From Arcobacter arenosus (GTDB lineage Bacteria; Campylobacterota; Campylobacteria; Campylobacterales; Arcobacteraceae): a DNA stretch of 64,000 nt. This document shows positions 55,409-57,494 of the stretch, one piece after another. Location of the stretch: the NCBI RefSeq assembly GCF_005771535.1, contig NZ_VANU01000004.1, forward strand, positions 1-64,000, written 5' to 3'. A model generated the notes under the pieces. The model worked only from the letters and a program-made list of their open reading frames with translations. It did not search any database and was not told the DNA's origin. Position numbers and translations under genes: made by a program. The number at the start of each line of letters is the position of its first letter. Within the stretch, counting starts at the first letter, position 1.

Positions 55409-56050
55409 TTAACCCCAGATTTGCATAGGAGGAGTATTAGCTACTGCTTTTAAAATATTTGCCCGTGAAACAATTCCTAATAAATTATCATCTTGGTCAA
55501 CTACAGGTATTGCCGTTAAGGAAAAATCAACCATAACCTTAGCAACCCTTCTAATATCAGTTATGGGATCACTAGTTATAACTTCATTAAAATCAAAAGT
55601 TGATAATTCTCGTTGCATAATGTTTTGAGCAAATTCTAAATCACCAACAAGTAAATCTAAAATAAACTCTTGAGTTACCAAACCAATAATTTGATTATCA
55701 TCTTTTTTTAAAACAGGAATTTGTCTAAATTCATGTTCTTGCATCAATTCGTAGGCTTCAAGAAGAGTATTATCCTCATTTAAACTTATTACATCCCTTG
55801 TCATTAAATCTTCTACATGAAAAATTGGCTCTTTTGTATCAATATTAGCCATTTTTTTGTAAACAGCTTTAGCCTCTTCAATATTTTGATTTTCATAAAG
55901 CTTTTTTTTAGATTTTAAGCTATGGTCTTTAGGAAGACCCTCTTCTGTATTGTTTCTAACCCTTGCAATTGAATCAACATTGGAAAGAGTATATAAATTA
56001 TCAATTGTGCTTCTAAAACTCAATCCATTGTTGTTATAAATTGCAAACAT
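55409..56050 (-). CDS. CBS-domain pair protein
   Basis: A 213-residue protein with a 65-residue N-terminal region without a known domain and then two CBS motifs: VEDLMTRDVISLNEDNTLLEA through IIGLVTQEFILDLLV, and VITSDPITDIRRVAKVMV through LLGIVSRANILKAVA. Such Bateman modules bind adenine nucleotides or SAM and usually regulate a partner. The only close neighbour on the same strand is the recombinase-like gene 25 bases upstream. It may form a regulatory pair with it, an inference from position alone. Confidence 0.87.
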   Translation of the reverse strand: MFAIYNNNGLSFRSTIDNLYTLSNVDSIARVRNNTEEGLPKDHSLKSKKKLYENQNIEEAKAVYKKMANIDTKEPIFHVEDLMTRDVISLNEDNTLLEAYELMQEHEFRQIPVLKKDDNQIIGLVTQEFILDLLVGDLEFAQNIMQRELSTFDFNEVITSDPITDIRRVAKVMVDFSLTAIPVVDQDDNLLGIVSRANILKAVANTPPMQIWG

Positions 56051-56074: not shown

Positions 56075-56716
56075 TCAACTAGCTATGTCTAGTGTATTTG
56101 GCAAAGAATGTCTAATATTTCTTTTTTTAACATAATTGTTCAAACCAATATGATTATTATATCCTAATAGTTTTGCTATTTTTCTAACTGATAATCCAAC
56201 AGCTAATAACTCTTCTATTTTATCTCTTTGTTTATCAAACTTAGATTTTTGAATTGTTCCTTTTGGTTTTCCTAAACTTTCACCTTTTAATTTTTTTGCA
56301 GTTAGAGCTTCTTTTGTTCTTAAACTCATTAAATCCTTTTCAAGGTTTACAGTCATCGAGATAACACCAAGTATCATTTGTGTCAACATATCTTTATCAT
56401 CAATTAAATCAAGATTTTGTTTAACAATAATAATTCTAATTTTATTTGAAAGTAAAAACTTAACTATCTCTAAAATTGTCTCAATGGTTCTGCCAAAAAC
56501 ATTTAAATCATAAACAACAACAGTTGAAGAATGCTCACAGCTTTTTAAAAAGTCCAGAATATTTTTCTCATCATCAGGAGTATCTATAACTATTTCAATC
56601 TCTTTATTAATAGAAATATTGTTCTTAGAAATATATTCTTCTAAACCTTTTTTTTGATCTTTTGTATAACTCTCATTATTGTTGTTAACTCTAACATATG
56701 TGAAAACTTTAGACAT
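56075..56716 (-). CDS. Serine-recombinase-like protein with degenerate active site
   Basis: A 213-residue protein with the resolvase N-terminal fold and a C-terminal helix-turn-helix. The N-terminus reads FTYVRVNNNNESYT where active resolvases have YxRVST; the nucleophilic Ser is Asn. The second catalytic cluster, LDRLGR in active enzymes, is DLNVFGRT, so the Asp and first Arg are lost. Helix E and KEALTAKKLKGESLGKPKG, typical of the family, are kept, and the HTH is LLAVGLSVRKIAKLLGYNN. It probably binds DNA without recombining it. Long AT-rich palindromes lie in front of the gene. No inverted repeats or cargo suggest a mobile element. Confidence 0.85.
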   Translation of the reverse strand: MSKVFTYVRVNNNNESYTKDQKKGLEEYISKNNISINKEIEIVIDTPDDEKNILDFLKSCEHSSTVVVYDLNVFGRTIETILEIVKFLLSNKIRIIIVKQNLDLIDDKDMLTQMILGVISMTVNLEKDLMSLRTKEALTAKKLKGESLGKPKGTIQKSKFDKQRDKIEELLAVGLSVRKIAKLLGYNNHIGLNNYVKKRNIRHSLPNTLDIAS

Positions 56717-56939
56717 ATTAATTCCTTTACAAAAAATATAATTAAATATATTTAATAAACAAATTGTTAAATTATATATATTTAAAACTTATACAAAATG
56801 ATATACTTTTATTTATTAATTTAAGCTTAAAAAAAGCTTATTTAGATAATTTTATCAATGATATTTATTATTCTTTTGAAAATAAAGTCTTTTTTGGCTA
56901 ATATCTCCTTTTATTAGTACTTTATGAAGGTTTTTAAAA
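56717..56939. promoter_or_regulatory. AT-rich divergent region with palindromes
   Basis: The longest non-coding stretch here (223 bases) separates the recombinase-like gene and ubiX. It contains a perfect 16-base palindrome ATTAAATATATTTAAT (56741-56756), a related AT-rich repeat near 56775-56790, and a hairpin TAAGCTT-AAAAA-AAGCTTA (56822-56840). The palindromes lie within 40 bases upstream of the recombinase-like gene, where an autoregulatory operator would be placed. Promoters for both flanking genes must be here. Confidence 0.5.
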
Positions 56940-57494
56940 GTGAAATTAGTAATTGGAATAACAGGAGCAAGTGGCGCTAAACTTGCACTTAAATTTGTAC
57001 AAAAACTGCCTTCAAGTGTTGAAGCTTTTGTAGTGGTATCAAAAAGTGCCCGAAAAGCTTTGAAACTGGAGCAGAACATCGACATAAAAGATGAACTTTT
57101 AAAAAGGGAAAATACTCATATTTTTAAAGAACATCAAATAGAAGCGTGTATCTCATCTGGATCTTTTAAAACTGACAAAATGATAATACTTCCTTGTTCA
57201 ATGAATACCCTTGCAAAATGTGCTGTTGGTATTTCAGACAATCTTATAACTAGAGCTTTTACAGTGATGTTAAAGGAAAAAAGAGAGGTTGTTTTAGCAC
57301 CAAGAGAGATGCCTTTTTCTACTCTTGCTTTAGAAAACATGCATAAACTATCAACTCTTGGAGTGATTATTGCCCCACCTGTATTAGCCTACTATTCAAA
57401 ACAAGATTCTATAGAACTTATGGAAGATTTTTTAATAGGAAAATGGTTTGATTTATTAAAAATTGAACACAATCTATATGAAAGATGGAAATAA
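56940..57494 (+). CDS. ubiX: Flavin prenyltransferase UbiX
   Basis: A 184-residue enzyme that makes prenylated FMN for UbiD-type decarboxylases. Motifs: VIGITGASGAKLALKFVQ, VVVSKSARKAL, the ACISSGSFKTDKMIILPCSMNTLA segment (SSGS plus PCSM), ISDNLITRAFTVMLKEKRE and LVPREMPF-like VLAPREMPFS. The start is GTG 56940, with GAAGG nine bases before. These bacteria make menaquinone by the futalosine route, where MqnP/UbiD-like enzymes may need prFMN. It is the first gene of the ubiX-coaD-tmk-hisS-speA-cysE run. Confidence 0.95.
   Translation: MKLVIGITGASGAKLALKFVQKLPSSVEAFVVVSKSARKALKLEQNIDIKDELLKRENTHIFKEHQIEACISSGSFKTDKMIILPCSMNTLAKCAVGISDNLITRAFTVMLKEKREVVLAPREMPFSTLALENMHKLSTLGVIIAPPVLAYYSKQDSIELMEDFLIGKWFDLLKIEHNLYERWK

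Follow-up and report, generated by a model that had tools for sequence, protein, structure and literature searches.

The gene at positions 56075..56716 (- strand) of the window, the 64,000-nucleotide stretch of Arcobacter arenosus DNA that was analysed, encodes a 213-residue serine resolvase-like protein that is catalytically dead by sequence, seemingly a former plasmid enzyme that has become a DNA-binding protein controlling its own gene. Genome comparison places the gene in nearly all Arcobacteraceae, usually at one fixed chromosome position by ubiX-coaD-tmk-hisS. Its enzyme half has apparently been lost and its DNA-binding half has been frozen family-wide, with a seemingly matching loss in the DNA site.

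The original prediction described a serine recombinase in which the fold, the GKPKG linker and the helix-turn-helix (HTH) are intact, and this was borne out. The Pfam Resolvase domain (PF00239) matches residues 5-146 with 62.5 bits (gathering score of 23.3), and HTH_38 matches residues 162-186 below threshold. In NCBIfam, the top match is the Master DNA invertase Mpi family (NF009949), with 89.6 bits for a cut-off of 272 bits. An AlphaFold2 model produced with 53 relatives as input (pLDDT of 87.7) displays a long helix (residues 110-143) and a helical C-terminal domain, and its best Foldseek matches in the PDB are Tn3 resolvase-site III, gamma-delta resolvase and Sin-DNA complexes. Whole-chain TM-scores to these complexes are modest (0.43-0.53), probably owing to a differing placement of the two domains. 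The resolvase fold, the E helix and the C-terminal HTH are all present by Pfam, AlphaFold2 and Foldseek; the linker (LGKPKG) and HTH span residues 148-202 (56111..56275, -). The A. arenosus genome encodes one other resolvase, L001 (G000:C6:10149-10769), which is canonical (GYLRVSTDKQ, SRLGR), ~36% identical to the dead protein, and has a different HTH.

We compared the catalytic residues of 36 dead Arcobacteraceae orthologues with those of 17 intact active relatives. The nucleophilic Ser10, predicted from the window alone to have become Asn, is replaced in 36/36 orthologues, by Asn in 35 of them, including the window protein (Asn11, codon at 56684..56686, -), the exception being L096, which starts MSKFISFVRCIENN. 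The ISSRK/SSRK loop bearing Arg45 is two residues shorter and has lost this Arg in all 36 orthologues. The second motif, whose DR was also correctly noted as replaced, reads NVFGR in the window protein instead of the SRLGR of active relatives, with Val at the Arg68 position in 34/36 orthologues and the Arg71 equivalent kept. Because the equivalents of Arg8, Gln19 and Arg71 are retained in 36/36 orthologues, the active site is, as judged from this alignment, dismantled but not wholly erased. Furthermore, in the dead set, 15 positions (including N11, N13, N14, Y17, C60, N72, V73 and F74) are at least 94% fixed for a residue unlike the prevailing one in the active set. The alignment therefore indicates that, instead of simply decaying, the old pocket gave way to a new set of conserved residues.

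Median within-genus pN/pS (uncorrected proportions, with pS near 0.5) was 0.16 over the full length of the gene. By region, it was 0.24 (residues 1-104), 0.14 (residues 105-147) and 0.015 (linker and HTH, residues 148-202). Neighbouring genes gave 0.10 (hslV), 0.17 (tmk), 0.18 (hisS), 0.19 (coaD), 0.21 (ubiX), 0.29 (rplI) and 0.38 (a CBS-domain gene, the least constrained gene measured), making the DNA-binding end ~sevenfold tighter than the most constrained neighbour measured. Mean consensus of the DNA-binding end is 0.95 in the dead set vs. 0.82 in the active set, while for the N-terminal domain it is 0.67 vs. 0.78. The two consensus sequences are identical at 43/55 HTH positions and at 34/104 positions of the catalytic domain. 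By these measures, purifying selection on the HTH is extreme.

A search of 36 congener and family genomes found orthologues with 60-91% identity in all but three. There was no orthologue match in G034 and G035 (1.3 and 1.6 Mb), and the 1.3-Mb family genome G022 has a single divergent, fast-evolving copy with 42% identity (L065, G022:C76). In L065, the catalytic Ser is likewise absent, and its upstream region is without the array described below. Among 200 genomes of the order, full-length family orthologues score E 1e-94 or better, and the search yielded no orthologue outside the family, the matches there being far weaker (E 1e-26 to 1e-42). The best matches in genome contigs are from Arcobacteraceae (Poseidonibacter, Malaciobacter, Aliarcobacter, Halarcobacter and other bins), followed by canonical recombinases (42-46% identity) in Legionella, Paracaedibacter, a Rickettsia endosymbiont and others. 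Arcobacteraceae-type orthologues in records titled Helicobacter pylori, Desulfosporosinus and Sulfurospirillum (L105, L109 and L118) probably come from mislabelled metagenome bins. Plasmid relatives annotated as recombinases occur in Legionella, Cardinium, Megaera, Persicobacter and Campylobacter. In a midpoint-rooted tree, where the direction of change was deduced from residue loss, the dead set lies entirely on one side of a single branch (support 100/98, 100% of 200 bootstrap trees). The dead clade is thus monophyletic in this tree, for which one origin suffices, and its nearest relatives are canonical, presumably active resolvases, several of them plasmid-borne (in Legionella, Cardinium and Megaera). 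Both the shared HTH signature and the phylogenetic neighbourhood point to descent from the Legionella/Cardinium-type subgroup of plasmid resolvases.

The gene was predicted to lie outside any mobile element, and it is indeed surrounded by housekeeping genes: it lies between rplI-hslV-hslU and ubiX-coaD-tmk-hisS-speA, an arrangement retained in most family genomes. The stretch between rplI and the dead resolvase gene is variable across the family. The divergent ubiX-like gene (56940..57494, +), the syntenic neighbour in most Arcobacteraceae, is a possible second target. The gene has moved elsewhere, away from ubiX, in L054 and L057 (G036 and G018, from one genus), and this counts against the idea that ubiX is an obligatory target. 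The upstream array of these two copies appears rearranged. Distance from dnaA is 0.57-0.66 of the chromosome in 11/12 genomes and 0.47 in the last, which we judged too loose to back a role at the terminus.

Upstream of the gene, the original prediction had pointed to AT-rich palindromes. Taken singly, these are unremarkable for such AT-rich DNA, but comparison of 53-66 orthologous upstream regions reveals a conserved array there. In the window, this putative operator array (56726..56809, -) matches our array model R1 with 39.4 bits (E 1.6e-9), the next best match in the genome scoring 15.4 bits. The order of blocks in aligned upstream regions is TTTAAG-N5-TTTAAG, TAACATTTTGTATAA, TTAAACA..ATGTTA and a third block that ends with TTTTTGTAAAGG at the ribosome-binding site. 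The region of the window aligned with the TTTAAG repeats of the family, which have an 11-bp period, is 56813..56830 (-), and its second copy resembles the Campylobacter -35 element. Three junctions follow: TATCATTTTGTATAA (56789..56803, -), which overlaps a putative -16/-10 promoter element, ATTTAACAATTTGTTTATTA (56753..56772, -) and ATTATATTTTTTGTAAAGGA (56723..56742, -), which adjoins the ribosome-binding site. A putative 31-bp dimer site, site A, with outward-facing TGTATAA...TTTAACA, spans 56765..56795 (-). Inward WACA..TGTW at 11 bp was found in 53/66 distinct upstream regions and outward TGTW..WACA at exactly 31 bp in 28/66, with 45 counts at 29-31 bp and mostly a few at other spacings, these sequences being related by descent and not independent events. 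From these spacings, we infer that the array consists of adjacent 31-bp dimer sites whose abutting ends give the ACA-N5-TGT junctions, with half-sites of either orientation possible; in Sin site II, they are direct repeats (PMC2428073). Promoters in C. jejuni have -35 TTTAAGTnTT, -16 TTTTTTTG and -10 TATAAT elements (PMC3824568). Since junction 1 overlaps a Campylobacter-type -16/-10 element, its conservation has two possible causes and may partly reflect promoter constraint. Array blocks 2 and 3 are downstream of the putative promoter.

Active relatives differ upstream. The motif AACGNNCGTT is present at about -108 to -121 in 17/29 of their upstream regions, and in none of those of the dead set (0/47; 0/33 in a second set that overlaps the first). 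AACGNNCGTT would be the crossover site (site I) of active relatives, whose res-site geometry, taken from alignments, is not uniform.

Model R1 finds one strong match per genome in 16/16 congeners, each time at the gene's own promoter (30-46 bits), all others scoring at most 18 bits. In the wider family, the strongest matches are at the gene's promoter in the genomes with the gene position at hand, and weak ones (E 0.01-0.05) are not all at that promoter. The dimer pattern likewise recurs at the own promoter across 16 genomes and is otherwise at control level, and TATCATTTTGTATAA is at the own promoter in each of the 14/16 congeners that have it, with two extra copies in all. In the A. arenosus genome, the two other exact TATCATTTTGTATAA copies, one in folC and one overlapping the end of a response-regulator gene, were taken as chance. 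A genome-wide regulon is not supported by exact or near matches, which are no commoner than those of a reversed-pattern control; in the A. arenosus genome, sites with at most one mismatch number 39 vs. 45 for this control. Weak R1 matches (15.8-17.9 bits) were seen in three congeners before an ABC-transporter substrate-binding gene (L226, L227 and L229), and may be promoter similarity only.

Taken together, the shared residue loss, the single origin, the fixed synteny, the purifying selection on the HTH and the conserved array argue for domestication as a DNA-binding protein, as originally predicted; that this protein is also a regulator is a part of the prediction that we infer from its self-operators only. 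The reading that we favour, and consider fairly probable, is that of a domesticated plasmid resolvase left with its accessory DNA-binding role and repressing itself via a res site devoid of site I. A plasmid-type serine resolvase would have been captured once, before diversification of the Arcobacteraceae, and fixed beside the ubiX operon. It would then have lost cleavage (Ser10, Arg45 and Arg68), and its res-like upstream region the crossover-site signature, while keeping fold and DNA-binding domain. The dead protein would sit on head-to-tail ~31-bp sites spanning its own promoter and leader, as resolvases do on accessory sites II/III, and dimers occupying the array would shut off its own transcription. 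There are precedents, in that S10A subunits at Tn3 res sites II or III still support recombination (PMC9943657) and that a promoter overlapped by site II is repressed when Sin occupies this site (PMC2428073). Self-regulation alone does not explain retention of the gene. Any wider role would probably lie in transcriptional or architectural control of the divergent promoter region, possibly of the ubiX operon, with perhaps a few degenerate sites elsewhere. The purpose of autoregulation is possibly an effect on ubiX, a few degenerate targets, low-specificity architecture or tethering of the locus.

The strongest alternative, which we regard as unlikely, sees in the dead protein a nucleoid-associated or architectural factor, one bending or bridging AT-rich DNA at numerous degenerate sites, with its own array merely the strongest of them. 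An HTH surface that is near-invariant over 55 residues in a core gene found across the family would fit such a protein, as would the missing discrete regulon, which is expected if specificity elsewhere is low. The self-array, however, is spaced and conserved like a specific operator. Lower still, we place a guard against incoming elements, which would occupy res of plasmids with related resolvases and thereby block resolution or repress genes. The HTH consensus is common to plasmid-borne active resolvases and, its own promoter aside, the dead protein has few or no chromosomal targets. Nevertheless, the canonical relatives within Arcobacteraceae (L001, L066, L068 and L070) have an HTH different from that of the dead protein, so that a steady target is not evident, and operators of the dead set are unlike active res. 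Marginally less probable again, by analogy with Sin, which pairs two site IIs via its DNA-binding domains, is a resolvase-derived tethering element instead of an ordinary repressor. Dimers on the single array would hold or shape this one locus by pairing its sister copies or by bending the region, in either case with no cut made.

The original prediction also supposed control of the dead protein through nucleotide binding to a CBS partner. The gene for a CBS-pair protein (55409..56050, -) does come next in the window, on the same strand after a 24-bp gap, which is in favour of a dead resolvase regulated by, or working with, this protein. The two genes are neighbours in 12 of 15 congeners, the window included, but in none of the other genera examined, and constraint on the CBS gene is weak (see its pN/pS above). 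We therefore rejected this partnership on synteny, as very improbable. The CBS-pair protein has an uncharacterised N-terminal part of ~75 residues, is fast-evolving and is genus-restricted at this place. Finally, an active recombinase using another nucleophile is scarcely credible: despite the retained Arg8, Gln19 and Arg71 equivalents, the Arg45 loop is shortened and Arg68 replaced, the crossover-like motif is absent, and none of the Ser residues of the N-terminal domain reaches 80% conservation among dead orthologues.

These findings describe what would be a natural separation of the accessory function of a resolvase from its catalytic function, and suggest that "recombinase" annotations of this Arcobacteraceae core gene are misleading. 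In a literature search with partial coverage, most subscription journals being outside it, we found no paper that deals with this Arcobacter gene or with a catalytically dead serine recombinase in a regulatory role, and no description of such a dead enzyme as a fixed core gene. In passages of a review on recruited mobile elements from 2022, host-recruited serine recombinases act by cutting and rejoining DNA (inversion, excision), and its authors know of no evidence that serine resolvases take part in chromosome segregation (PMC8987985).

Compared with known systems, the dead protein resembles the small serine resolvases Tn3, gamma-delta and Sin in its fold, long E helix, GKPKG-type linker, HTH and putative upstream multi-site array, but unlike them it has no nucleophile, Arg45/Arg68 or recognisable crossover site, and is a fixed chromosomal core gene product. 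No inversion activity is expected from its match to the Mpi family, far under the cut-off. Among its closest relatives are the "recombinase family proteins" of Legionella, Cardinium, Megaera and Persicobacter plasmids (36-47% identity), which share with it the HTH signature GTIQKSKF...NHI.LN.Y. These proteins are plasmid- or element-borne and not core, and the canonical relatives on contigs keep the catalytic residues and, for 17/29, the upstream AACGNNCGTT. A further close counterpart is the binding of accessory site II by Sin and of site III by Tn3 resolvase, which is catalytically silent, as that of the dead protein would be. For these active enzymes, silent binding is one mode among others, whereas for the dead protein it would be the sole remaining mode.
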